Source: Gammaproteobacteria bacterium
GTDB lineage: Bacteria; Pseudomonadota; Gammaproteobacteria; Pseudomonadales; Cellvibrionaceae
Direction of reading: 5' to 3'
Length of the DNA stretch: 64,000 bases
NCBI GenBank assembly: GCA_004172865.1
Contig: SEBV01000006.1
Location: forward strand, 310,001-374,000
Made by a program: the position numbers and the translations under genes. Below the pieces are notes generated by a model. It saw nothing but the letters and a program-made list of their open reading frames with translations. It was not told where the DNA came from and did not search any database. Positions 1 through 11,555 of this stretch are shown here, one piece after another (position 1 is the stretch's first letter; every line of letters starts with the position of its first letter).

Positions 1-1002
1 AATCATATTCTCGGCGATGTTATTCAGATCAATTCCGCCGAAAATGGCGATATAAAATCTGTAACCACTGCGCAGCAAGGCGAAATTTTCGGAGATTTAT
101 TTATTGATTGCACCGGCTTCTCATCGCTGTTACTCGGCGAGCATTTAGCCGTGCCTTTTGTTGATAGAAGCGATGTGCTTTTTATTGATACCGCCATAGC
201 GGCGCAAGTGCCCTACGAGCAGGAAGATGCACCTATAGCGTCGCACACCATTTCAACTGGCCAAGCCGCTGGCTGGATCTGGGATATAGGATTAATACAC
301 AGACGTGGCACCGGCTACGTTTATTCCAGTAAACACACCAGTCATGATGAAGCAGAACAAACCTTACGCGATTACATAGGGCCTGCGGCAAAAGATTTAA
401 ATTTTAGAAAAATTCCAATTCAATCCGGTCACCGAAAATTATTCTGGAAAAACAATTGTGTCGCGGTAGGTTTATCGGCGGGATTTTTAGAACCGCTCGA
501 AGCATCCGCGATTGTATTAGTGGAACTGTCAGCGGAAATGATTGCAGAACAATTACCGGCTTGCAGAGAGGTAATGGATATTACCGCTAAACGCTTTAAC
601 GAAACATTTTTGTATCGCTGGGATCGAATCGTTGATTTTTTAAAATTGCATTACATTTTAAGTAAACGCTCCGATAATAGTTTTTGGTCGGATAACCGCA
701 ACCCGGAAACCATTCCTGAAAGTCTGCAAGAACTTATGCAACTGTGGCGCTACCGCTCACCCGGCAATCAGGATTTCACCAGCAATAACGAGGTATTTCC
801 TGCTGCCAGTTACCAATACGTGCTCTACGGCATGGGTTTTAAAATGGATGCGAGCTTAATTGCACATACATTGGATGCAAAACATTTAGCCGCCGAGCAA
901 ATTTCACAAAATGCCGCGACAATTAAAAAAGCACTGAATATGTTGCCAACCAATCGCGAACTTATGAAAAAAATTCACGAATTCGGTTTCGCAAGCGTTT
1001 AA
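1..1002 (+). CDS. Flavin-dependent (tryptophan) halogenase-like protein, 5' end outside window
   Basis: The frame is open from base 1, so the gene begins upstream of the window; only the C-terminal 333 codons are visible. It reads like the second complete copy at 7168-8691: a FAD-domain stretch ending in IDCTGFSSLL, then AGWIWDIG followed by RRGTGYVYSS, then FLEPLEASAI, which aligns with the PLE-S/A-T segment carrying the catalytic glutamate in PrnA/RebH. The family signature WxWxIP is here WIWDIG, so the proline is replaced by glycine. The substrate is unknown. Proteins of this family next to TonB receptors and SapC are usually annotated tryptophan halogenase without evidence for tryptophan. 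It is followed after 21 bp by SapC, so the two are probably co-transcribed. Confidence 0.85.
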   Translation, partial: NHILGDVIQINSAENGDIKSVTTAQQGEIFGDLFIDCTGFSSLLLGEHLAVPFVDRSDVLFIDTAIAAQVPYEQEDAPIASHTISTGQAAGWIWDIGLIHRRGTGYVYSSKHTSHDEAEQTLRDYIGPAAKDLNFRKIPIQSGHRKLFWKNNCVAVGLSAGFLEPLEASAIVLVELSAEMIAEQLPACREVMDITAKRFNETFLYRWDRIVDFLKLHYILSKRSDNSFWSDNRNPETIPESLQELMQLWRYRSPGNQDFTSNNEVFPAASYQYVLYGMGFKMDASLIAHTLDAKHLAAEQISQNAATIKKALNMLPTNRELMKKIHEFGFASV

Positions 1003-1023
1003 TTATCATGGAGCAAAATAACT

Positions 1024-1740
1024 ATGTCTAATTTAGTAGCACTACACAATAACGCACACCAAAGCCTTAAAGTGAACACGCAACTCGCTGAAGCCCAGGG
1101 CGGCAACTTACATATGATTCCTGTGGTACTCAGCGAGTTTCTAAAATTAGCGGTACAGTTCCCTATTGTTTTAACCAAAAACAAAGATACCGGCCGCTTC
1201 TCTTGCATCACCTTGTTTGGTTTTCAAACCAATGAAAATCTCTTTGTAAAAAATGGAGAATGGGATTCACTTTATATTCCTTTGCAAATCAGACGGCAGC
1301 CATTTTTCCTAGGCAATTCCAGCGACGTTGAAAATGAATTTGTTATTTGTATTGATACGGATCATAAAAGTTTGCAGAGCGATATAGGTGAGCAAGTGTT
1401 CGATACTACTGGCAAAGAAACGCCCTATCTCGAAAATATAAAAGCGATTCTGGCTGAGCTTATGAATGGTGAAGCTAGCACTGAGAACTTTGTGAAAACC
1501 CTGGCTGAATTAAATTTATTACAGCCTATGCGTTTGGAAATTACGTTTAAAAACGAAGATTCTATGCGGGTAGACGGCCTTTACACCATCAATGAAGACC
1601 GCTTAAAAACGCTTGAAATTGAGGCGATTACGCAGTTACATCAGAAAAATTATTTAAGTTCAATTTATACAATGATCACTTCGGTTGGTCATATTTACGG
1701 GCTAATCGAACGAAAAAATAAACAGCTAAGCGGCAATTGA
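1024..1740 (+). CDS. SapC family protein
   Basis: This 238-residue soluble protein resembles the SapC family (Pfam PF07277), first named from a surface-layer-associated gene but of unknown biochemical role. Visible family features are an N-terminal stretch HMIPVVLSEFLKLAVQFPIV followed by a KD-x-G-x-F strand, FGF, and a conserved FFLG segment. No signal peptide or membrane segment is apparent. It sits between a halogenase-like gene (21 bp upstream) and a DUF6445 gene, whose ATG lies 2 bp after this stop codon. Such trios recur beside TonB-dependent receptors in Caulobacter, Xanthomonas and Cellvibrio relatives. The start ATG has GGAG about 10 bp upstream. The function is not established. Confidence 0.8.
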   Translation: MSNLVALHNNAHQSLKVNTQLAEAQGGNLHMIPVVLSEFLKLAVQFPIVLTKNKDTGRFSCITLFGFQTNENLFVKNGEWDSLYIPLQIRRQPFFLGNSSDVENEFVICIDTDHKSLQSDIGEQVFDTTGKETPYLENIKAILAELMNGEASTENFVKTLAELNLLQPMRLEITFKNEDSMRVDGLYTINEDRLKTLEIEAITQLHQKNYLSSIYTMITSVGHIYGLIERKNKQLSGN

Positions 1741-1742
1741 TT

Positions 1743-2510
1743 ATGAATACTGCAACTTCACTCGTCAGCCAAATAGCTAAATCAGTAGCGGAAAATAATG
1801 TTCCTCAATTTAATTTTTCGATTAATCCCAATCTTAAAATTAATACTATTTACGTGGGAAATGAGCAGGAACCTGTTGTTATTGTGGATGACCTTTTGAA
1901 TTTTCCAGAGGCAATAATTCAATATGCGGAGACGGGTTTCCCCTTTAAAGCAGATGCTAAAGATTTTTACCCCGGCATTAGAAAACCACTCGCGCCCTCT
2001 TACGCTGAAAATATATATCGCGAATTAATGCAAACCATGTGGACGGTCTTTAGCTCAAAAAGCACGGTTAATATTAAACTTTTATCCAGCGTTTTATCGC
2101 TCACCACCACGGCACCACAAGATTTGCGCCCTATTCAAAGTGTTCCGCATTTCGATGGTTTTCTCGCTAACAATATCGCTAGCGTCCACTATTTTTGTGA
2201 ACCGGAATGCGGCGGAACTTCGTTTTATCGTCATAAAACGACGGGATTTGAAACCATGAATTCGCAACGCATTCAGCACTACGCGCCCACGCTAAAAAAT
2301 GAGGTGATTGCATCCAACAAATCCACTTATGATTATATTAATGGCGATACAGATATTTTTGAACGCACCGCGTCAATCGATGCGAAATTTAACCGCGCTA
2401 TTTTTTATCGCAGTAATATTTTGCATTCGGCGAACGTCAACAAGATTTGCCTGAATGAAAAACCTGCAGAGGGAAGACTAACCGCCAACACACTTATTGC
2501 GATTGATTGA
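1743..2510 (+). CDS. DUF6445 family protein, putative 2OG-Fe(II) oxygenase-like
   Basis: The protein has 255 residues from the ATG at 1743; a TTG six bases earlier overlaps the SapC stop and is less likely. It is a paralog of the protein at 6429-7148. The shared blocks are PHFD, GGTSFYRH, FYRSNILHS and GRLTANT. The order HxD, later H, then R about 20-25 residues on is that of non-haem iron, 2-oxoglutarate-dependent oxygenases, so I infer an iron-binding double-stranded beta-helix. This is inference; the family is officially of unknown function. It is probably translated with SapC because only 2 bp separate the SapC stop and this ATG. It ends 32 bp from the convergent nagX gene. Confidence 0.75.
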   Translation: MNTATSLVSQIAKSVAENNVPQFNFSINPNLKINTIYVGNEQEPVVIVDDLLNFPEAIIQYAETGFPFKADAKDFYPGIRKPLAPSYAENIYRELMQTMWTVFSSKSTVNIKLLSSVLSLTTTAPQDLRPIQSVPHFDGFLANNIASVHYFCEPECGGTSFYRHKTTGFETMNSQRIQHYAPTLKNEVIASNKSTYDYINGDTDIFERTASIDAKFNRAIFYRSNILHSANVNKICLNEKPAEGRLTANTLIAID

Positions 2511-2542: not shown

Positions 2543-3625
2543 TTAAAGCGAAATAACAATACCTTTCTTATCCATATATTTGGCAACACACCAAAATATA
2601 AAGACTTGAATTAACGCATAAGTAAGCGAAGCAATGTAGGGATCAAGGAAATGATTTAATTGTTGGAAGGAAAACTCGTAAACACTGACATCACCGATTT
2701 TAACTGTGTACAAGACGGTTGCCCACATAAATGACAGAACATAAATAAATAACGGATTTTTTCCGAATGGTATGCAGAGATTTAAAATGGCTTTCGCGGG
2801 AGTCTTCTCCAAAGCAACCAGTAGCAATAATACCGCAATTCCAACGCCCGACGTTAAGAGTACAAATGGGCTGGTCCATAAGGATTTATTAATTGGGAAA
2901 ATAAGATTCCAAATCAATGCAGCAACAATAAGCACCGCGCTCAGAATTGCTAATTTTTTCTGCGCAGAAAAACCGCTATCACTCGTCGATAAAATACGCG
3001 CGACTTCAAAACCTAAAAGTACATTAACAACCGCAGGAAGCGTACTCAACAAGCCTTCAGGATCAAATGGAATTCCTTTGCCTTGCCACAAATGCCCTGC
3101 CCCAAGTACTGCCAAATCGATTTGACGAACTAGCGAATGCTCAAGCGAATAAGGTTGATCACTCAACTGTAACAACAACCAGTAACCCAACAAAATTGCA
3201 GCACTGATCACCCAACGCGTTCTCATGCCCGCATAGAGCACGATAAATGCTGCGATTCCATAAGCTAAGGCAATACGCTGCAATACGCCCAAAATACGAA
3301 TTTCACCAATTGGTGTGAGGAAGGGAAATATATTTAGAAACAAACCCACTGCAAATAATAATAAGGTACGTCTGATGATTTTTTTATGGCGATCTGCGGC
3401 GGTAATATGTGGCTGCAAAAGTGAGCGTTGCGAAAAGAATAACGCTGCGCCGACCATAAAGAGAAAGAAGGGAAAAATGAAATCGGTTGGTGTAAAACCA
3501 TTCCAATCCGCATGCTCCAACGGAGCGTAAACAAAACTCCACGAACCGGGATTGTTAACCAAAATCATCAAAGCAAGGGTAAGGCCGCGCATTATATCCA
3601 GTGCGGGGAAACGTTGTTTTATCAT
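2543..3625 (-). CDS. nagX: NagX-like inner-membrane acyltransferase-family protein
   Basis: This 360-residue polytopic protein begins ALDIMRGLTLALMILVNNPG, then has DWNGFTPTDFIFPFFLFMVG, both typical of the HGSNAT/DUF5009 family. About ten hydrophobic segments can be read. NagX is linked genetically to chitin and N-acetylglucosamine use in Shewanella and Xanthomonas, where it may help amino-sugar passage or modification across the inner membrane; the exact reaction is not settled. It is the last gene of nagK-nagP-nagX, starting 27 bp after the nagP stop, with GAGG five bases before its ATG. The tight position behind nagP supports the NagX name over a generic acyltransferase. Confidence 0.85.
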   Translation of the reverse strand: MIKQRFPALDIMRGLTLALMILVNNPGSWSFVYAPLEHADWNGFTPTDFIFPFFLFMVGAALFFSQRSLLQPHITAADRHKKIIRRTLLLFAVGLFLNIFPFLTPIGEIRILGVLQRIALAYGIAAFIVLYAGMRTRWVISAAILLGYWLLLQLSDQPYSLEHSLVRQIDLAVLGAGHLWQGKGIPFDPEGLLSTLPAVVNVLLGFEVARILSTSDSGFSAQKKLAILSAVLIVAALIWNLIFPINKSLWTSPFVLLTSGVGIAVLLLLVALEKTPAKAILNLCIPFGKNPLFIYVLSFMWATVLYTVKIGDVSVYEFSFQQLNHFLDPYIASLTYALIQVFIFWCVAKYMDKKGIVISL

Positions 3626-3652: not shown

Positions 3653-4981
3653 TTATTTCCAGCTTTTTATTTTGTGGCCTTTGACTGCATAAAACAAAAT
3701 GAAAGCGTAACACGGCAGCATCACCCAATAGGCAGTTTGGCTATTGCCAGTTGAGTGAGCGATTTGTCCATATACCAAAGGTAAAAGCGCGCCGCCCGCA
3801 ATTGCCATGATCAACAAAGCCGAACCTGTGCTGGTGTATTTTCCTAGGCCTTGTAATGCCAATGGCCAAATCGCAGGCCACACTAATGCGTTGGCAAATC
3901 CGAGTAATGCGAGAAATAACACACTGTTTGGAATGGCAGGAATACCTATCCAACCTAATAACATTTGCGAAATATTTGAATCAGCCGGAGACGAAAATAT
4001 AACGCCAGCAACAAATATAAAACCGGAAACTGCAGATAACACCAATGCATTTGACTGGCTTAGATATTTAGGAATACAAGTCACGCCAACTACATAACCC
4101 AACACCATAAAGCCCATGGTATAAGAAGTCAGTGAACCGAAATGTTCAACGCCGAGATGACGGCCATATAGGCCAATGGTATCACCCGCAATTACTTCAA
4201 CACCCACATATAAAAACAATGCAATCGTGCCGAGAATTAATTGGGGAAACTGCAAAATTCCAGATTTTTTATCGATTGACTGATCTTCATCATCACTTAA
4301 ATTTAATTCAGCCAGCGGAGAAAAATGCACAAATGCCATCAATGCAATTAATACCACCGCCATAATTACGTAAGGCGTGACAAGACGTGATGACAATTCA
4401 GAAAGACGTTCAGCGCGCGCCGTTGCATCCAGCACACTAAGAGCTTCGTTGGTGAACTGATCCATGCCAGTTAATATCCACGCAGTAAAAAGCAGTGGAA
4501 CAAGAACTCCGGCAGATTTGTTAATCAAACCCATAATGCTAATACGCATAGCCGCACTTTCACGCGGGCCAATGCAAACAATGTAAGGATTTGATGCGGT
4601 TTGTAACAATGTTAAGCCCGCGCCCAACACAAAAAGCGCAGTTAGAAATAAAAAATAAGTTGAGGATTTTGCAGCAGGAATAAATAAAAGCGCACCGAGC
4701 GCCATAACACCAAGCCCAACGACCATACCGGTTTTGAAACCAATTTTGCGCAGTACAAACGAAGCCGGTAACGCCATAAAGGTGTAAGCGATATAAAACG
4801 CAAAGGTCACCAGCATTGCCTGAAATTCGTTGAGGTCACAAACGATTTTCAAAAATGGAATCAGCGAGCCGTTTAACCAGGTTACAAATCCAAATACAAA
4901 AAAAAGTGTTCCTATGATGACCATAGGAATAAATGTGCTGGTAGTGCGCGGCAGATTTTCGGTTTGTGTGCTGGCATTCAT
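3653..4981 (-). CDS. nagP: NagP-type MFS N-acetylglucosamine permease (FHS family)
   Basis: The protein has 442 residues with twelve predicted membrane helices and belongs to the fucose/glucose/galactose:H+ symporter group of the major facilitator superfamily. The opening FVFGFVTWLNGSLIPFLK and the FVLGAGLTLLQTASNPYI segment are characteristic. In Shewanella and Xanthomonas, orthologs beside nagX and nagK import N-acetylglucosamine through the inner membrane without the PTS. That role fits here because a kinase follows the same promoter and no PTS gene is visible. GAGG lies eight bases before the ATG. The 98-bp gap to nagK contains no obvious terminator, so one operon is likely. Confidence 0.9.
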   Translation of the reverse strand: MNASTQTENLPRTTSTFIPMVIIGTLFFVFGFVTWLNGSLIPFLKIVCDLNEFQAMLVTFAFYIAYTFMALPASFVLRKIGFKTGMVVGLGVMALGALLFIPAAKSSTYFLFLTALFVLGAGLTLLQTASNPYIVCIGPRESAAMRISIMGLINKSAGVLVPLLFTAWILTGMDQFTNEALSVLDATARAERLSELSSRLVTPYVIMAVVLIALMAFVHFSPLAELNLSDDEDQSIDKKSGILQFPQLILGTIALFLYVGVEVIAGDTIGLYGRHLGVEHFGSLTSYTMGFMVLGYVVGVTCIPKYLSQSNALVLSAVSGFIFVAGVIFSSPADSNISQMLLGWIGIPAIPNSVLFLALLGFANALVWPAIWPLALQGLGKYTSTGSALLIMAIAGGALLPLVYGQIAHSTGNSQTAYWVMLPCYAFILFYAVKGHKIKSWK

Positions 4982-5079: not shown

Positions 5080-5979
5080 TTAGACCGTTAAAACATGCTG
5101 CTGTTTTGCAAAGTAGACCGCGCCAAACTCAGGCTGGCTAATAGGATTAGATAGGCTGGCGGCTATGCTAGGTTTCAACCATGGCGTTAATGGCCCGGAT
5201 AAGCCGCCGATTAATGACATGCGGCTTGGGCCTGTTTCCCATAATCTTTCAGCAACGGCGCTCATGTAGTCAGCACCTTCACGCATAATTTTTACGGCAA
5301 CTTCATCGTTCGCATTTGCGGCTTCTAATACGAAACGTGCGAGTTTTGCATAATCGCTGGATTTTGCTGAACCCATCTTATCAACAATCATCACGCCTCT
5401 AGCGTTTAAATGATCGCCAATTAAATCGCTTAAGCTGGTGCGCGGGCCGAGATTATCAGATTCCAGAAGAACTGCTTTTACCGCTTCCAAACCAATCCAG
5501 GCACCGCTACATTTGTCGCCAAATGGAAAGCCGTGCGCACCGAGAATAGTTGCCTTACCTTTTACAAATGAATAACCGCATGAACCGGTACCGGCAATCA
5601 TTACCGCACCTTCGTCCTGGGTGTGTGCCCCTAAACAGGCGATATGCAAATCAGTGGTGAGGTACATTTTTTTGAAGGGGTGATGCCAGGCATTCATAAC
5701 ATCGAACAGGCTTGGCAAATTCACGCCTGCCAAACCGACACCTGCAATCAAACTACCGGCAACAGCATTAGGCAGACCGGCTTCGGTCAGCGCCATTTCA
5801 ACAGCGTGTAAAATAGAGGCTTTAGCTTGTGATTGACCGTGTAATGGATTTGCGGGGCCACCAACTCCTGTGCCCAACACTTTATCGTCCGCGGAAAATA
5901 AACGCGCGCGGCATTTTGTACCACCACCGTCAATGCCGATAAAAAGCTGATCGGAATCAAGATTTGGCATTTTTCCCAT
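5080..5979 (-). CDS. nagK: N-acetylglucosamine kinase, BadF/BadG family
   Basis: The protein has 299 residues from the ATG at 5979, which has GAGG five bases upstream; an in-frame ATG 36 bp earlier has no good ribosome site. The phosphate-binding motif FIGIDGGGTK is at residues 13-22, the catalytic TD at 109-110, and the second phosphate loop AGTGSCGYSF at 129-138. This is the BadF/BadG/BcrA/BcrD ATPase fold of GlcNAc and glucosamine kinases. It would phosphorylate cytoplasmic GlcNAc delivered by NagP to GlcNAc-6-phosphate. The deacetylase and deaminase (nagA, nagB) and the regulator are not in the window. A terminator-like hairpin lies in its leader. Confidence 0.88.
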   Translation of the reverse strand: MGKMPNLDSDQLFIGIDGGGTKCRARLFSADDKVLGTGVGGPANPLHGQSQAKASILHAVEMALTEAGLPNAVAGSLIAGVGLAGVNLPSLFDVMNAWHHPFKKMYLTTDLHIACLGAHTQDEGAVMIAGTGSCGYSFVKGKATILGAHGFPFGDKCSGAWIGLEAVKAVLLESDNLGPRTSLSDLIGDHLNARGVMIVDKMGSAKSSDYAKLARFVLEAANANDEVAVKIMREGADYMSAVAERLWETGPSRMSLIGGLSGPLTPWLKPSIAASLSNPISQPEFGAVYFAKQQHVLTV

Positions 5980-6082
5980 GGCGACCTCATTACAACGTAA
6001 AAATTCGTACAACATCAGGTTCGGCTAATCGCAACCGACTTTTTTAATTTTTTGCAGCGCTGGTTATGTCGCGTTGAAAAAA

Positions 6083-6104
6083 GTTGGTGCCTTGCGGCAC
6101 CAAC
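6083..6104 (-). terminator. Intrinsic terminator or attenuator hairpin in the nagK leader
   Basis: Read on the minus strand this is a perfect 9-bp stem, GTTGGTGCC and GGCACCAAC, closed by a GCAA tetraloop and followed directly by six T residues. It lies about 100 bp upstream of nagK and downstream of the predicted nagK promoter at 6160-6188. The leader in front of it is only about 50-60 nt and has no convincing open reading frame. It could attenuate the operon or end a short leader RNA. Confidence 0.7.
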
Positions 6105-6159
6105 AAAAGGATTGACTCAACAACTACGAACAATAACAACTAACGTTTAACTCAGGGTT

Positions 6160-6188
6160 AGATTAGCCTCTTGAGACAACGTTGTCAA
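6160..6188 (-). promoter_or_regulatory. Predicted sigma-70 promoter of the nagK-nagP-nagX operon
   Basis: On the minus strand a perfect TTGACA (6188-6183) is followed after 17 bp by TAATCT (6165-6160). The -35 hexamer overlaps the operator palindrome at 6175-6186, so repressor binding should block RNA polymerase. The same TTGACAACGTTGTC plus 17-bp arrangement occurs before the TonB receptor. Confidence 0.6.
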
Positions 6189-6199
6189 ATAGATATTAT
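6171..6199 (+). promoter_or_regulatory. Predicted sigma-70 promoter of the second DUF6445 gene
   Basis: TTGAGA at 6171-6176 and TATTAT at 6194-6199 are separated by exactly 17 bp; each hexamer matches the consensus at five of six positions. The operator palindrome fills the spacer. It would give a transcript with a leader of about 220 nt before the gene at 6429 and makes this a divergent promoter pair with one operator. Confidence 0.55.
6175..6186. promoter_or_regulatory. Operator palindrome GACAACGTTGTC, copy 1 (LacI-type, putative NagR site)
   Basis: A perfect 12-bp palindrome with a central CG, the hallmark of LacI-family operators. The identical sequence is found twice before the TonB receptor (11506-11517 and 11542-11553) and I noticed no copy away from these promoters. 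Position over both divergent promoters suggests repression in the absence of an amino-sugar inducer. The repressor gene is not in the window, so calling it a NagR site is inference. Confidence 0.75.
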
Positions 6200-6428
6200 G
6201 CTAATTTACACGATAAGTGCGAATAAATATTTTCTACCAAGAAAGGTGCATATTCACCTATAAAACCAAGGCAAATTCTTATCGTTTTTCGTAAATTCAA
6301 GGCGCTATTACGTGAATCATTTTGAAAATAGAGCATAACGGAAAACGGTTTTTGAAAATACTCAAGTAGACTACAATTATTCGGAAACAACAGCGATTTA
6401 AATTCCATTTAACCACAGCGGCGATGCA

Positions 6429-7148
6429 ATGACAGCAACTAATCCTTATGCGCTTAATCCAAATTTATCGATTAAATTGCTAAATCCCGCGAGTAATATT
6501 CAAAAAGTTATAGTGATAGAAAATTTACTACAAAACCCTCAAGCCTTGACGGATTTTGCTATAGAAAATAATTTTGAGCCCTACCCCCGCACTGCATCGG
6601 GTAAAGGTTACCCTGGTGTACGTTTAACGCCGCCGAGTGAATATTCCCTCGCAATTACTGAATTTATTAAGCCTTTAATACAACGGGAATTTAGTGTTGA
6701 TACAGATTTGGAAATGCGCAAAAGTGAATGCGCTATTTCATTGATGACCCTTAAACCTGAAGAGCTTGGTGCAGTTCAACGCTTGCCGCATTTTGATACC
6801 AGCAATATCAATCAATTTGCGGTCCTCCTATATCTTTGTAATCACAAGCATGGGGGAACTGCATTTTATCGTCACAATAAAACTGGTTTGGAATTTATTA
6901 CCCCACAAAATTGTGATCACTACCTAAATACTTTTTATGCAGAACTCGATAAACAAGAACCGCCTTTAGAATATTTTGCAGATTCAGATGAGCAATTTAC
7001 CAAACTTGGTTTTTTACCGGCGGCGGTGAACAGAATGGTTATTTATCGCAGCTGCGTTTTACACTCGCCTTATATTGATCCTGCAATTAGTATTGATGCA
7101 AACCCAAGCACTGGTCGCCTTACGGTCAACACTTTCGTTGCTTTCTAA
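6429..7148 (+). CDS. DUF6445 family protein, second copy
   Basis: This 239-residue protein is a paralog of 1743-2510. Conserved blocks occur in the same order: KGYPGVRL, LPHFDTSN, HGGTAFYRH, VIYRSCVLHS and TGRLTVNTFV. The HxD, distal H and following R again fit the iron and 2-oxoglutarate ligands of dioxygenases, which I infer but cannot prove. No signal peptide is seen, so it is cytoplasmic. Its promoter shares an operator with the divergent nagK operon. It ends 19 bp from the convergent halogenase-like gene, and the pair halogenase-like plus DUF6445 repeats the arrangement at the left edge of the window. The ribosome site is weak. Confidence 0.75.
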   Translation: MTATNPYALNPNLSIKLLNPASNIQKVIVIENLLQNPQALTDFAIENNFEPYPRTASGKGYPGVRLTPPSEYSLAITEFIKPLIQREFSVDTDLEMRKSECAISLMTLKPEELGAVQRLPHFDTSNINQFAVLLYLCNHKHGGTAFYRHNKTGLEFITPQNCDHYLNTFYAELDKQEPPLEYFADSDEQFTKLGFLPAAVNRMVIYRSCVLHSPYIDPAISIDANPSTGRLTVNTFVAF

Positions 7149-7167
7149 CTGTGTGTTGTTGTGTCGA

Positions 7168-8691
7168 TCATTTAGGATTGCTAATAGCACGTTCAAACTT
7201 GCTTAACCATTCACGATGACTTGGTAATTCTTTCGCTAATTGCTCGGAACGCTGTTTCACCTGCGCAAACTGAGCTTTGCTAACGCCTGCTTCATAAGTC
7301 GAGATTGGTGGAACTCGTGTTAGGTATTTCATACCATAGAGAACGAATAAATAATTATCCACATTAAATAAATCAAACTGGCTGAAAAAATCGATTTTCT
7401 TGGGATGATTAAGTTTCCACATTTCCAATCGCTCATGCAGAATTTCAGACAATGACGTTGAATTAATATTTTCCTGCCAAAAATCAGAATCGTCACGATC
7501 AGAAATACAATAATGTAATTGCACAAAATCAATAACTCTTTCCCACGCATAACTCAATACTTTGTTGCAATAGCCGGATAAAACCTCAATATTCTCGCTG
7601 TTTCTGGGAAAGTTTCGCGCAAGAATCTCTGCAGAAAAATCGGTTAATAAAATAGACGTTGCTTCCAGTGGTTCAACAAAGCCCTGCGCCAAACCGAGTG
7701 CGACACAATTTTTACACCAAAATTTTTCACGATAGCCAATCTTCATGGAAATTTTTCTGGGTGATAATTTTTCTACATCCAACTGCAGGTATTTTGAAAA
7801 CTCTTCAAGCGCCTGTGACTCGCTCATGTGCGAACTTGAATATACGAATCCCGTGCCGCGCCTTTGCGTTAAGGGAATATCCCAAGTCCAACCTGCTTTA
7901 TGTGCGGTTGCAGTTGTGTAGGGTTTTATTTCTTCCATACCATCACTTGGTATTTGCAGTGCAAACGCGGTATCGGTAAAAATTTGTTTGGATTTATCAA
8001 TAAAAGGAACTTGTAATTCGCGATCAATTAATAACGACGCAAAGCCGCTGCAATCAACATAAAAATCAAATTCAACCTCACCCCCATCGCTTGTTACTAG
8101 TTTAGCAATTGAGCCGTCATCATTTTTGGTGGCGCCAACAATTGTGGTGATGAGATGCTTAACCGATAATTTTTCACGTGCGTTTTTGGCTAATAATTTT
8201 CCAAATTTTACTGCGTTAAAATGGTAAGCGTAATTGACTTCGCCAAGGTATGGAGGCGATGAGATTTTTTTAGGGGAACGCATAGCTTCTGCAACACCGA
8301 TAACTTCAGTAACGGCAGAAAATTCAAGGTTCTCACGATTTGCTAACCAATAAGGCGTAACGTCATAACCGGCAGGATAAGGAGAACTAAAAGGATGATA
8401 ATAAAAATGCCCTGCGCCGTGTTTTTCTGCGCTTAGCCAATCGACAAATTTTATTCCTTGTTTAAATGCAACATCGCAATTGGCGATTAATTCTGCTTCC
8501 GAAATACCAAAACGCTGCAGGGATTTTTTGATGTAAGGAACTGTGCCCTCGCCTACGCCAATAATGCCGATATCTTCAGATTCAATAAGCATTATTTCAA
8601 TATTTTCATGCTTTAATTCAACGCCGAGATGATTAGCGGCCAGCCATCCCGCTGTTCCACCACCAATAATAGCAACGCGTTTTATATTCAT
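7168..8691 (-). CDS. Flavin-dependent (tryptophan) halogenase family protein
   Basis: Complete, 507 residues. The Rossmann FAD motif RVAIIGGGTAGWLAANHL is at residues 5-22. The lysine aligned with catalytic Lys79 of PrnA is K77 in FKQGIKFVDW. The family signature WxWxIP is intact as WTWDIP, and the catalytic glutamate region reads EPLEATSI. It should use reduced FAD supplied by a separate reductase, not seen here. The substrate is unknown; tryptophan is only the family label. The gene lies downstream of the TonB receptor on the same strand, but a terminator separates them, so it probably has its own promoter in the 122-bp gap. AAGGT stands six bases before the ATG. Confidence 0.9.
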   Translation of the reverse strand: MNIKRVAIIGGGTAGWLAANHLGVELKHENIEIMLIESEDIGIIGVGEGTVPYIKKSLQRFGISEAELIANCDVAFKQGIKFVDWLSAEKHGAGHFYYHPFSSPYPAGYDVTPYWLANRENLEFSAVTEVIGVAEAMRSPKKISSPPYLGEVNYAYHFNAVKFGKLLAKNAREKLSVKHLITTIVGATKNDDGSIAKLVTSDGGEVEFDFYVDCSGFASLLIDRELQVPFIDKSKQIFTDTAFALQIPSDGMEEIKPYTTATAHKAGWTWDIPLTQRRGTGFVYSSSHMSESQALEEFSKYLQLDVEKLSPRKISMKIGYREKFWCKNCVALGLAQGFVEPLEATSILLTDFSAEILARNFPRNSENIEVLSGYCNKVLSYAWERVIDFVQLHYCISDRDDSDFWQENINSTSLSEILHERLEMWKLNHPKKIDFFSQFDLFNVDNYLFVLYGMKYLTRVPPISTYEAGVSKAQFAQVKQRSEQLAKELPSHREWLSKFERAISNPK

Positions 8692-8756
8692 GGTTTACCT
8701 TTTAAATTTGTTGCGCACATTAATTCAATGTGAAAATCATTAAACATTTTTTAGCT

Positions 8757-8786
8757 TCAAAAAAAAAGCCCAGCAATTGCCGGGCT
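8757..8786 (-). terminator. Intrinsic terminator of the TonB receptor gene
   Basis: On the minus strand AGCCC and GGGCT enclose a GCAATTGC inner palindrome with one G-T wobble, followed by a run of nine T residues. It lies 28 bp after the receptor stop codon. Confidence 0.8.
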
Positions 8787-8813
8787 CCTTTTCTTCACAA
8801 ATCTAGCTCTAAC

Positions 8814-11441
8814 TTAGAATTTGAAATTTGCGCCGATGGTGTAACGTGCTTCACCTGAGTATGACCATGCTGGATAGCCAGATTTGAGTGAATCTTTCAA
8901 GGTGGTAGATGGAGCTGCAGCACCGTATTGAATATCGTCTTCTTCTAACAAGTTAGTTGCTTCAAAGGTCAAACCAATATTTTCAGTGATGTGCCAGCCC
9001 AAGCTCAAATCCAGAGAGCCGAAGTCATCGTGCATACGATTGCCGTAGTAACCAGTTTCACGAATTAAGTACTTCGAACGCCAGTTGTACGCCGCACGTG
9101 CTGAGTAAGTTTCGTTTTCCCAGTAACCTACGATGTTAGCGCTGTTTTTAGACGATTCGGTAAATACACCAATGTTGTCTTGATAGCTTGCACCTGGTGC
9201 ATTGCCGTCAGCAAAAGTGTAGTTGATAGAAGTACCGAAGCCGTTTGCGAACGCGTGGTTCCATTGGAACTCCAAACCTTCGATTTTACCGCCGCCAGCA
9301 TTCACGTATTTGTTAACAGTCCAACTATCCAAGTTTGAGTCAGGGCTTACCAAACCGATTTGTTGGTCAACCAAGGTGTTGGACGTAATGAAGTTGTTAA
9401 TATCTTTGGTGAAATAAGTTACCGACAAGAGGTTGCCTTCACCGTAGTAGTATTCCAAACCAACGTCAGCTTGACTTGATTTCATTGGCAGCAAGCCGAT
9501 GTCACCTGTGGTCACGCTTTCGTTACCCACTACTGTATCTTCATAACCCGCTTGAGTAGTAGCGGTGAACATGTTGTCGTAGTTCGCGCGGTTGATTGCT
9601 TGCGATGCCGCTACACGCAATACCAAATCTTCGGTCAAGTCGAATGCGATATTCACACTTGGCAACACATCATGATAAGACGCTTTTTCGTAGGATTTAG
9701 TTTTGCTGTAGTAGGTATTAGCGACTTCATCGCCAGTAGCTAATGGAGTGCCATCAACTTTGTAAGAACCACCTTTTGCGTCAGTGTGGATGTAACGCAA
9801 ACCAAAGTTACCTCTCAAACCTTCAGCTTCAAAGGTGAACATGCCGTAAACAGCCTGGTTTTGTTCATTCAAGCTAGCGTAGCCAGAGCGCAATTCAGTC
9901 CAGTGATCAAGACTTGCTTTGGTAACATTAACCATTGCGCCTAACTTTGGCTCAGGTACTTTGAAACCTTCGTTACCCAATTCATAGCTACCACCGTAGA
10001 AATTACTGGTGGCAGTTGGAGCAAGGCCAGCTTTCAAGATGCCTTTGTAGTTCTCTTTAACAACATCGTGTTCAGTAGCACGTACACCGGTTTTGAAAGA
10101 TTTGATCACACCAAGATCAAGATCGAAATCTATATCAAATTGACCGTATTTCTCTTCGTCAGAGTTTGGTCCTTTACCGACAGCCCAGCTTTCAGGAGCA
10201 GAATTGGCAGGAAGGTTAGACATATTAACGGTAACGTCTTGCAGCGGAGTTACCTTAATTTGGTGACCCGTTGCATCTACAGTACCCGCCCACTTAGGCA
10301 AGTTGCCTGCGTAGTAACCGAAGTTGGTCGTTAAGCTGGTGCCGCCTTCTGCCTTGGTTTTACCGATTGCTGCAGTCGCTTTGAATGAGTCAGCTGTGTA
10401 AGCCGCGTTCAAGTCGATAGTGTCAGACGTCATTTCACCGGTACGACCCCAAGTTTGCATAAAGGTATCAGCTGGTGCGCTGGTAGGAACTGTGCTTACT
10501 ACGCAAGTGCCGTTAGCATTGGTTTTAGAGCAAGTGCCGCTAGCATTGAACAAATAAAGACTGGTGTTGGTGTTATCGCCAACCAGTTTCAAGGTGAGCA
10601 AATGCGCACCGAATTCCAACTCGTCCGTCGGCTTGGCTTGCAAAGTTAAATCAAGTGCAGTGCGCTTACGCTCTTGAATAAAAGTTGATGGTGCAACGTC
10701 GCTTGACCAGCGTAAATCCGCTTCATCACCTTGGCGAACATAATCACCAGAACTGCCAGCAGCAGCTACCAATACACCGAAGGTGTCAGAGTCATTTTTC
10801 CAGCTGTACAAGCCAGAAATATCCGGAGCCACGTCATCACTCAAAGTACCTTTAGAGGCTTTGATACCGGCGTAAGCTGTGTTCGCAGGCAAATCCAGAG
10901 GCTTACGAGTTTTTACGTTTACAACACCACCGATACCGCCTTCAGCGATGTCAGCTTGTGCAGATTTGTAAACGTCCATTCCGCCAATCAATTCTGATGG
11001 CAACATGGAGTAGTTGAAGCTACGGTCGATAGATACTTGATCGTACCAACCGGTTGATGCAACTGATTGACCATTCAATTGAGTCAAGGTCATTTGTGGA
11101 GCTGAACCGCGAATCGATACTGAAGAACCCTGACCGAACGCGCGGCCAACAGTTACACCAGGGATACGGCCGAGTGATTCACCGATATCTGAGTCAGGGA
11201 ATTTACCCACATCTTCAGCAGAAACTGCATCCACTACAGCGGTGGCGTTACGCTTAATATCCACGGCATTTTTCAAAGCACCACGAATACCAGTAACAGT
11301 AATTTCTTCAGCTTCTTGCGCGTGTACTTGCGCGGTTAAACCGAGAATAACGAGAGCGGCGGAGCTGGTTAAGAGCGCCGTTTTACTAAAAAGCGACTTT
11401 TGATTGACCGCCTTAATTGCATTGCTAAGCGTGTTATACAT
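8814..11441 (-). CDS. TonB-dependent receptor, putative chitooligosaccharide/GlcNAc uptake
   Basis: 875 residues. A signal peptide ends about residue 42 (VHAQ), followed by a TonB-box-like EITVTG. The plug domain reads IGESLGRIPGVTVGRAFGQG, then SIRGSAP and a VNVKTRKP segment. The beta-barrel ends in an aromatic terminal strand (GANFKF). The long SIRGSAPQMTLTQLNGQ plug is typical of carbohydrate receptors in Caulobacter, Xanthomonas and Cellvibrio. Two operator palindromes identical to the one at the nagK operon flank its predicted promoter, so I infer GlcNAc or chitin oligosaccharide as ligand. The Shine-Dalgarno AAGGGGA lies just before the ATG. An iron-siderophore role is less likely because no Fur box was seen. 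Confidence 0.88.
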   Translation of the reverse strand: MYNTLSNAIKAVNQKSLFSKTALLTSSAALVILGLTAQVHAQEAEEITVTGIRGALKNAVDIKRNATAVVDAVSAEDVGKFPDSDIGESLGRIPGVTVGRAFGQGSSVSIRGSAPQMTLTQLNGQSVASTGWYDQVSIDRSFNYSMLPSELIGGMDVYKSAQADIAEGGIGGVVNVKTRKPLDLPANTAYAGIKASKGTLSDDVAPDISGLYSWKNDSDTFGVLVAAAGSSGDYVRQGDEADLRWSSDVAPSTFIQERKRTALDLTLQAKPTDELEFGAHLLTLKLVGDNTNTSLYLFNASGTCSKTNANGTCVVSTVPTSAPADTFMQTWGRTGEMTSDTIDLNAAYTADSFKATAAIGKTKAEGGTSLTTNFGYYAGNLPKWAGTVDATGHQIKVTPLQDVTVNMSNLPANSAPESWAVGKGPNSDEEKYGQFDIDFDLDLGVIKSFKTGVRATEHDVVKENYKGILKAGLAPTATSNFYGGSYELGNEGFKVPEPKLGAMVNVTKASLDHWTELRSGYASLNEQNQAVYGMFTFEAEGLRGNFGLRYIHTDAKGGSYKVDGTPLATGDEVANTYYSKTKSYEKASYHDVLPSVNIAFDLTEDLVLRVAASQAINRANYDNMFTATTQAGYEDTVVGNESVTTGDIGLLPMKSSQADVGLEYYYGEGNLLSVTYFTKDINNFITSNTLVDQQIGLVSPDSNLDSWTVNKYVNAGGGKIEGLEFQWNHAFANGFGTSINYTFADGNAPGASYQDNIGVFTESSKNSANIVGYWENETYSARAAYNWRSKYLIRETGYYGNRMHDDFGSLDLSLGWHITENIGLTFEATNLLEEDDIQYGAAAPSTTLKDSLKSGYPAWSYSGEARYTIGANFKF

Positions 11442-11505
11442 GACTTTCCCCTTAAATTTTTTTGAACTCTTAATTTTTGGACTTTAGTTTTTTGTACAAC
11501 AACAT

Positions 11506-11517
11506 GACAACGTTGTC
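11506..11517. promoter_or_regulatory. Operator palindrome GACAACGTTGTC, copy 2
   Basis: A perfect 12-bp palindrome just downstream of the predicted -10 element of the TonB receptor promoter, roughly at +3 to +14. It is spaced 36 bp from copy 3, a little over three helical turns, so two dimers or one tetramer could bind together. Confidence 0.75.
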
Positions 11518-11526
11518 GTTAAAGCA

Positions 11527-11555
11527 ACATTATTCTCACTGGACAACGTTGTCAA
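11527..11555 (-). promoter_or_regulatory. Predicted sigma-70 promoter of the TonB receptor
   Basis: On the minus strand TTGACA (11555-11550) is followed after 17 bp by TAATGT (11532-11527). The layout, including operator overlap with the -35 element, copies the nagK promoter. The remaining intergenic sequence, 11556-11779, shows nothing I can name. Confidence 0.55.
11542..11553. promoter_or_regulatory. Operator palindrome GACAACGTTGTC, copy 3
   Basis: Perfect 12-bp palindrome overlapping the -35 hexamer of the receptor promoter, in the same register as copy 1 at the nagK promoter (TTGACAACGTTGTC on the minus strand in both). Confidence 0.75.

Follow-up and report, generated by a model that had tools for sequence, protein, structure and literature searches.

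A predicted NagR operator shared by N-acetylglucosamine genes and a DUF6445 gene in a Cellvibrionaceae genome

Do the N-acetylglucosamine (GlcNAc) genes nagK-nagP-nagX, a neighboring DUF6445 gene and a gene for a TonB-dependent receptor (TBDR) answer to one regulator? The question is raised by a 64-kb stretch of a 5.25-Mb Cellvibrionaceae genome, probably a Cellvibrio (the window; G000:C227:310001-374000), in which a sequence-only reading had noticed the same 12-bp palindrome, GACAACGTTGTC, at their promoters and had tied them into a single regulon under one LacI-type operator. An exact search of the window placed the palindrome at 6175-6186, 11506-11517 and 11542-11553, and no further copy appeared even when two mismatches were allowed, confirming both the reported positions and the absence elsewhere. 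What had been described as one operator is one palindrome with three sites in the window. From the sequence evidence given below, we consider it very probable that the palindrome is the operator of a NagR regulon through which GlcNAc and chitin genes would be jointly induced, with the DUF6445 gene as a member.

The palindrome, its genomic targets and a candidate NagR

The site at 6175-6186 is common to two divergent promoters. On the minus strand, TTGACA-17-TAATCT (6160-6188, -35 hexamer from 6188) points toward nagK, and on the plus strand, TTGAGA-17-TATTAT (6171-6199, -35 hexamer from 6171; 10 of 12 consensus matches) points toward the DUF6445 gene. The TBDR promoter, TTGACA-17-TAATGT on the minus strand (11527-11555, -35 hexamer from 11555), carries two sites: O1 (11542-11553) overlaps the -35 hexamer and the spacer, and O2 (11506-11517) lies near the predicted transcription start. 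All three sites are exact palindromes. When the geometry was recomputed, it agreed with the two minus-strand promoters, the plus-strand promoter and the 17-bp spacing described earlier. A promoter scanner listed neither minus-strand promoter, and both have -10 boxes that are weak against the consensus. Across the genus Cellvibrio, 20 of 21 genomes have the exact palindrome in the region upstream of nagK; by reading, TTGACA and, 17 bp on, a hexamer beginning with TA (TAATCT in 16 cases) are present in each of the 21 operator-bearing nagK leaders. The two TBDR sites are 36 bp apart in most relatives and 32 bp apart in G009, and the TBDR promoters of G011 and G018 have a single exact site. We rejected an operator longer than 12 bp. 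By reading, the 11 sites of the genome agree in the core alone, plus a T on the -35 side in many, and a longer consensus is therefore not claimed.

The genome scan that the sequence-only reading had proposed found 11 exact copies at 10 places (the TBDR gene has two), where 0.29 copies were expected from base composition, and a reversed-pattern control had no exact genomic copy. The many random copies away from promoters that had been named as counter-evidence were not found: all 11 copies lie outside open reading frames (ORFs) of at least 80 amino acids and 23-358 bp upstream of an ORF. With up to two mismatches there were 165 genomic matches per strand versus 394 for the control. Because the control outnumbers these matches, the signal lies in the exact sites alone, and mismatched sites were not counted as operators.

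Six of the 10 places precede genes that act directly on GlcNAc or chitin, namely nagK, the TBDR gene, nagB-nagA, a GH20 gene and two GH18 genes. The nagB-II product scores 353 bits with NCBIfam NagB_SO3506, below the cut-off of 430, and nagA is over its cut-off for TIGR00221. Two more places fit GlcNAc use, with a chemoreceptor (methyl-accepting chemotaxis protein, MCP) that has an sCache domain and an acetate-CoA ligase (acs). To sample regulon content, 40 stretches at operator places were taken from five further genomes (for G004, five of its eight places). The GH20 gene lies behind an operator in all five genomes, the MCP and GH18a genes in four, and the gene for an AraC-type regulator clearly in two. 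The acs gene (L014:8161-10249) stands behind an exact operator, likewise in all five sampled relatives; its presence suggests that the regulon also serves to recapture the acetate that NagA sets free. At another place, an exact operator precedes a gene (L016:8072-9529) for a serine-rich protein of 450 amino acids with no Pfam or NCBIfam match at E 0.001.

The genome has six LacI-domain genes. A search for a nagR-type gene among LacI genes, also proposed earlier, found one at L018:7599-8624 (G000:C227:298098-299123), approximately 11 kb before the window and directly before the operator of nagB-II-nagA. Its product matches PF00356 (72 bits, cut-off 27) and Peripla_BP_3 (125 bits, cut-off 26.5). 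The palindrome itself fits a NagR-type operator, being even, with a central CG, and standing before nagK, nagB-nagA and the TBDR gene. In Cellvibrio, 20 of 21 genomes have both NagR (at least 80% identity over the match; the match in G019 is partial, on a contig) and 4-15 operators. The remaining genome, G012, serves as a natural control: it lacks both NagR and the palindrome, and has kept nagK.

The same association was observed in 120 Cellvibrionaceae genomes. Copy numbers are 3-17 (mean 9.6) in the 49 of them whose NagR reaches at least 62% identity, and 0-2 both in the 25 with a homologue of 52-59% identity and in the 46 without a NagR match at E 1e-95. At least three copies were thus present in 49 of 49 NagR genomes (at least 62%) versus none of the other 71, with no exception. 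No other result argues as strongly that NagR has the palindrome as its operator. Among 369 genomes of the class, a NagR match at E 1e-110 was obtained in two, G000 itself and G372, a genome of another family that has a 57% homologue and the operator at its nag loci. Judged in this way, GACAACGTTGTC is almost certainly the operator for the LacI-family NagR.

We propose the following mechanism. Without GlcNAc, NagR dimers on the -35 and spacer sequences would block the promoters, and at the TBDR promoter NagR would also occupy the second site near the transcription start. Intracellular GlcNAc, the effector expected by analogy with NagR of Shewanella oneidensis, would release NagR, so that the receptor, inner-membrane transport, the kinase and nagB-II/nagA would be expressed together, as would the chitinases, the hexosaminidase, the chemoreceptor and the acetate-CoA ligase. 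In the window, the DUF6445 gene would join the regulon by way of the operator between the two divergent promoters; in most relatives it would do so by transcription after the TBDR and halogenase-family genes. Its product, as a predicted Fe(II)/2-oxoglutarate oxygenase, might work beside the receptor and the halogenase-family protein.

Several findings weigh against this reading. No NCBIfam equivalog exceeded its cut-off for NagR. Two of the 10 operator places precede genes without an evident GlcNAc role, those for the AraC-type regulator, which is followed by a gene with a weak chitinase match, and for the 450-amino-acid protein. At two other places a further candidate target is transcribed divergently (a hybrid histidine kinase gene and a sigma factor gene), so that the target there is a choice, and 10 of the 40 sampled stretches had no target among the queries within 800 bp. 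The operator is 195 bp from the start of nagK and 242 bp from that of the DUF6445 gene, beyond the range typical of LacI-family sites, over 75% of which lie 30-140 bp from the start according to an excerpt of PMC4052901. Finally, an intrinsic terminator sits between the operator promoter and nagK in the window. The single regulon is supported by the genomic targets, by NagR co-occurrence in the 120 genomes and by synteny. Coordinated uptake, import and phosphorylation of GlcNAc, as predicted by the sequence-only reading, is supported in part: the shared operators and GlcNAc-related targets argue for it, but with a terminator in the path, nagK-nagP-nagX need not be induced in simple coordination.

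A terminator and structured RNA in the nagK leader

The terminator (6077-6104, minus strand) has a 9-pair stem, a GCAA loop and six U residues (z -5.3), and would end a short leader RNA that begins approximately at the predicted nagK start site (6077-6160, minus strand; fold z -2.9). By a strict stem-plus-U-run rule, 19 of the 21 operator-bearing nagK leaders of the genus have a terminator; the window's genome has none in its remaining regulon leaders. The nagK operator may therefore have another main task, the control of a small RNA or an attenuated leader of 80-220 nt that ends at the terminator. The genes nagK-nagP-nagX would then be expressed by read-through or from a promoter of their own, and the RNA would act on mRNAs or sense a signal for read-through. 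We regard the chances of this alternative as evenly balanced.

Conservation of the leader favors it. A 36-nt stretch before the terminator is present with no mismatch and in single copy in 14 of the 21 genomes, the window's not among them. In an alignment of these 14 leaders, into which the other seven of the genus did not fit, a 5′ hairpin with covariation is followed by an invariant middle part and by the terminator (L177:1285-1412 is an example). Eight pairs were changed on both sides compared with a shuffled mean of 3.2, and none of 500 shuffles reached the score. When five single leaders were folded, z ranged from -2.4 to -5.1. Pairwise identity was 0.87 in the RNA versus 0.59 in the spacer that follows. 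Seven nagK leaders of Gilvimarinus have a longer covarying RNA (L266:7151-7344 is an example), with 18 pairs changed on both sides versus a shuffled mean of 9.1 and again no shuffle of 500 reaching the score. The Gilvimarinus model matched the nagK leaders of two Cellvibrio genomes, G009 (E 1.3e-5) and G004 (E 0.0011), with four more matches up to E 1, at E 0.11-0.48. Searched against 47 sources, the Cellvibrio model gave 11 matches up to E 1, all in nagK leaders and weak (best E 0.0066); two of them fall on the terminator alone, and L147 and L268 are the same genome.

Small RNAs of the Hfq type and terminator attenuators have a promoter of their own, a folded 5′ part, an invariant and mostly unpaired middle, and a terminator with a U-run. 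The nagK leader RNA resembles them in these parts, including, as far as sequence can tell, its own promoter and intrinsic terminator, and differs in having no Rfam match. No Rfam family was found for the window's leader, where a CRISPR-repeat match on the other strand (E 3.3) was the only match, or for the relatives' leaders that were tried. In addition, an extended -10 sequence, TGNTATNAT, follows the U-run by 7-8 nt in 12 of the 14 Cellvibrio genomes, so that nagK transcription apart from the RNA would be possible.

Other results speak against an RNA as the main object of the operator. The window's leader is short, matches the Cellvibrio RNA model weakly (E 0.7) and, by reading, contains no TGNTATNAT; its kinship to the structured RNA of the relatives is unproven. 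One third of the genus leaders (7 of 21) stayed outside the alignment, and for further pair types 20 of 500 shuffles reached the observed value. Outside the genus, the strict terminator was present in seven of 16 operator-bearing nagK leaders and not in nine, although some of the nine (G409, G430 and G429) have a hairpin and a U-run by eye. Pairing of the invariant RNA core with the start regions of eight locus genes, in up to 11 genomes, showed no consistent excess over mononucleotide shuffles; TBDR came closest, with z -1.6 to -2.0 in six of 11 genomes, and nagP gave z -2.2 to -2.7 in three of 11. Moreover, Shewanella NagR controls nagK directly, as described in the available sections of PMC3223726.

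A leader peptide was rejected as an explanation: short frames are present, including one of six codons in the 36-nt stretch, and by eye none is kept across leader types. Upstream of nagK in G419 (L270:391-453) there are a terminator and a sequence that weakly matches the Gilvimarinus model (E 0.31), with no operator found within 420 bp. A literature search on Cellvibrio, small RNA, leader and nagK returned nothing recognized as this RNA among the best 20 of 897 open-licence entries.

Taken from sequence, the NagR operator at nagK may drive a small RNA or an attenuator. The stronger proposal, that across the Cellvibrionaceae the nagK operator switches a so far undescribed RNA gene of 80-220 nt under NagR control, lying between the receptor/DUF6445 genes and nagK, falls slightly short of an even chance in our estimate. 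If it is true, GlcNAc induces a regulatory RNA with conserved CUCUCC-like motifs in addition to uptake and catabolic genes, and either chitin sensing reaches other mRNAs or that RNA sets read-through into nagK.

Locus architecture and the DUF6445 gene

We return to the regulon and to the genes that its operators would serve. On the minus strand, nagK (5080-5979) encodes the GlcNAc kinase (NCBIfam NagK_SO3507, 447 bits, cut-off 370); the leader alignment indicates that it probably starts at 5979 and not at the first start codon of the ORF, 6015. It is followed by nagP (3653-4981, minus strand), a GlcNAc MFS transporter gene (NagP_SO3503, 543 bits, below the cut-off of 625), and by nagX (2543-3625, minus strand), which encodes a putative transmembrane glucosamine N-acetyltransferase (NagX_SO_3504, 151 bits, below the cut-off of 480; Pfam HGSNAT_cat, 38 bits, cut-off 22). 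The TBDR gene (8814-11441, minus strand) belongs to the TonB-Xanth-Caul family (NCBIfam TIGR01782, 573 bits, cut-off 310), and its product is likely an importer of GlcNAc or chitooligosaccharides, with the substrate judged from the locus. Downstream of it lies a gene for a flavin-dependent halogenase-family protein (Trp_halogenase, Pfam PF04820, 446 bits; 7168-8691, minus strand), which was absent from the gene list of the sequence-only reading and is syntenic in 13 relatives. Between the two, a terminator-like hairpin with U and A tracts (8752-8800, minus strand; z -4.7) was found, where a consensus terminator scanner listed none. Because this hairpin is strong, control of the halogenase-family gene is uncertain and may depend on read-through.

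The DUF6445 gene (6429-7148, plus strand) stands between the halogenase-family gene and nagK. All 14 loci with a close DUF6445 orthologue, the window's and those of 13 relatives, have the order TBDR-halogenase-DUF6445-operator-nagK-nagP; nagX follows nagP wherever the relatives' contig reaches it, and two of the 14 loci have a second halogenase-family gene. DUF6445 is co-directional with the TBDR and halogenase-family genes in 10 of the 14 loci and inverted in four (the window, G020, G002 and G009), where a single operator lies between two divergent promoters. To the extent that DUF6445 was placed in the regulon from the window's promoters, the claim holds for its position beside the operator, which is the same in all 14 Cellvibrio genomes that have a close orthologue, and less for its plus-strand promoter, which is clear in the window and G020 only. 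By reading, the hexamers of that promoter are identical in G020, the nearest relative of the window, and unclear in G002 and G009.

It could be argued that DUF6445 merely neighbors the nagK operator and is under other control. In favor of this, the operator is 242 bp away, the plus-strand promoter is unclear in two of the four inverted loci, and the nagK operator lies 3′ of DUF6445 in 10 of the 14 loci. However, when 30 DUF6445 loci were fetched in the genus, an exact operator was present within 1.5 kb in all 14 orthologue loci (39-100% identity) and in none of the 16 others (31-43% identity; two of these end at contig ends). Where DUF6445 is co-directional, it follows the TBDR and halogenase-family genes, whose promoter has operators. 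The association with GlcNAc genes also extends beyond the family. A DUF6445 scan of named genomes gave 15 loci from Burkholderiales or beta-proteobacteria, the other five being short stretches; the same receptor type (51-57% identity) is near DUF6445 in 13 of these 15 loci and nag-enzyme homologues in 10, and the palindrome is at none of them, indicating that the link between DUF6445 and GlcNAc outlives the regulator. We therefore consider a purely incidental neighborhood improbable. DUF6445 is not essential to the regulon, since three NagR genomes have loci without it: it is missing from the fetched locus of G007 and G010, and in G372 and G007 SapC and halogenase genes stand in its place. In a DUF6445 tree, the rows with nag neighbors fall in one group of 35 rows with modest support (85/63). 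A strict GlcNAc-only clade is not claimed, as the group includes 10 nag-free rows and two operator-only rows.

The idea that the palindrome is a generic site of another of the six LacI proteins, to which a 43-46% identical paralogue across the genus lends some support, is very unlikely, because G012 has that paralogue without NagR and without any copy, and the 25 family genomes with 52-59% homologues alone hold 0-2 copies.

What a NagR-controlled DUF6445 protein would do was addressed by structure prediction. PF20043 is the sole Pfam match for five of six DUF6445 proteins, the sixth adding three chance-level matches. None of the six matched a known 2-oxoglutarate oxygenase family by sequence, and a search of the PDB gave one chance match, an antibody at E 2.3. 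An AlphaFold2 model built with 42 sequences reached a predicted local distance difference test score (pLDDT) of 93 and a predicted TM-score (pTM) of 0.90. Foldseek returned 23 matches at E<=0.001, in which the named enzymes were all 2-oxoglutarate-type oxygenases, among them PolD, HygX, OGFOD1, P3H1, AndA and SnoN, and two proteins were uncharacterized; TM-scores were modest, approximately 0.3-0.5. All 42 sequences have H121, D123, H212 and R230, a pattern that we take to be the metal triad (HxD...H) and the 2-oxoglutarate-binding arginine. DUF6445 thus resembles Fe(II)/2-oxoglutarate dioxygenases in its predicted fold and in the invariant HxD...H and distal arginine, and differs in that identity is approximately 8-14% for most matches and that Pfam keeps it apart, with no function. 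Based on the model and the invariant residues, DUF6445 is probably an Fe(II)/2-oxoglutarate dioxygenase. Our guess is that it acts on the receptor, or on a compound together with the halogenase-family protein. A search of open-licence papers found no mention of DUF6445.

An adjacent cluster (window 1-2510 and L018:14180-18850) contains a TonB receptor, a halogenase-family protein, SapC and a second DUF6445, as well as sigma-factor-like and FecR-like genes named by eye. It has no exact NagR operator.

Comparison with known systems and implications

The regulon proposed from the window holds up in its main points. It represents a type of control already known, and it extends the NagR regulon of S. 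oneidensis MR-1. In the sections of PMC3223726 available, S. oneidensis NagR binds upstream of nagP, nagK, mcp, omp and cbp, 20 mM GlcNAc releases it from a nagK fragment, and its deletion raises the transcripts of these five genes 5- to 50-fold. The two systems, as far as the consulted parts of PMC3223726 and PMC2996990 describe the former, share a LacI-family regulator (ours being a putative counterpart of SO3516), GlcNAc as the expected inducer, and nagP, nagK, nagB-II, nagA, a TonB receptor, a chemoreceptor and a hexosaminidase as targets. In contrast to S. oneidensis as described there, the operator here also precedes GH18 chitinases, an acetate-CoA ligase and DUF6445, a halogenase-family gene follows the receptor, and the nagK leader contains a terminator or a structured RNA. 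The terms "acetyl-CoA synthetase" and "halogenase" do not occur in the main text of PMC3223726. NagR of Xanthomonas likewise controls the GlcNAc kinase and TonB-dependent receptors, according to excerpts of PMC5343134; there, nagAB/nagP are controlled by NagQ of the GntR family, whereas here the same palindrome precedes nagB-nagA and nagK-nagP-nagX.

In open-licence literature, the string GACAACGTTGTC occurs in two of five papers listed, one on a Streptococcus genome and one on aminoglycosides in E. coli, neither of them about GlcNAc to judge by the title and the opening of the abstract, and nothing was found on NagR together with SapC or halogenase. As far as we searched, three things are new: where DUF6445 stands and the chemistry predicted for it, a broader set of targets, and the structured RNA under the same operator in the leaders of the relatives.

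These results turn an observation at the level of promoters into a defined regulon with a candidate repressor, in a chitin-degrading genus that serves as a model saprophyte. DUF6445, a family with no function, gains a predicted chemistry and a pathway, and a structured RNA outside Rfam is placed at a sugar-kinase operon, where it may act as a small RNA or an attenuator.

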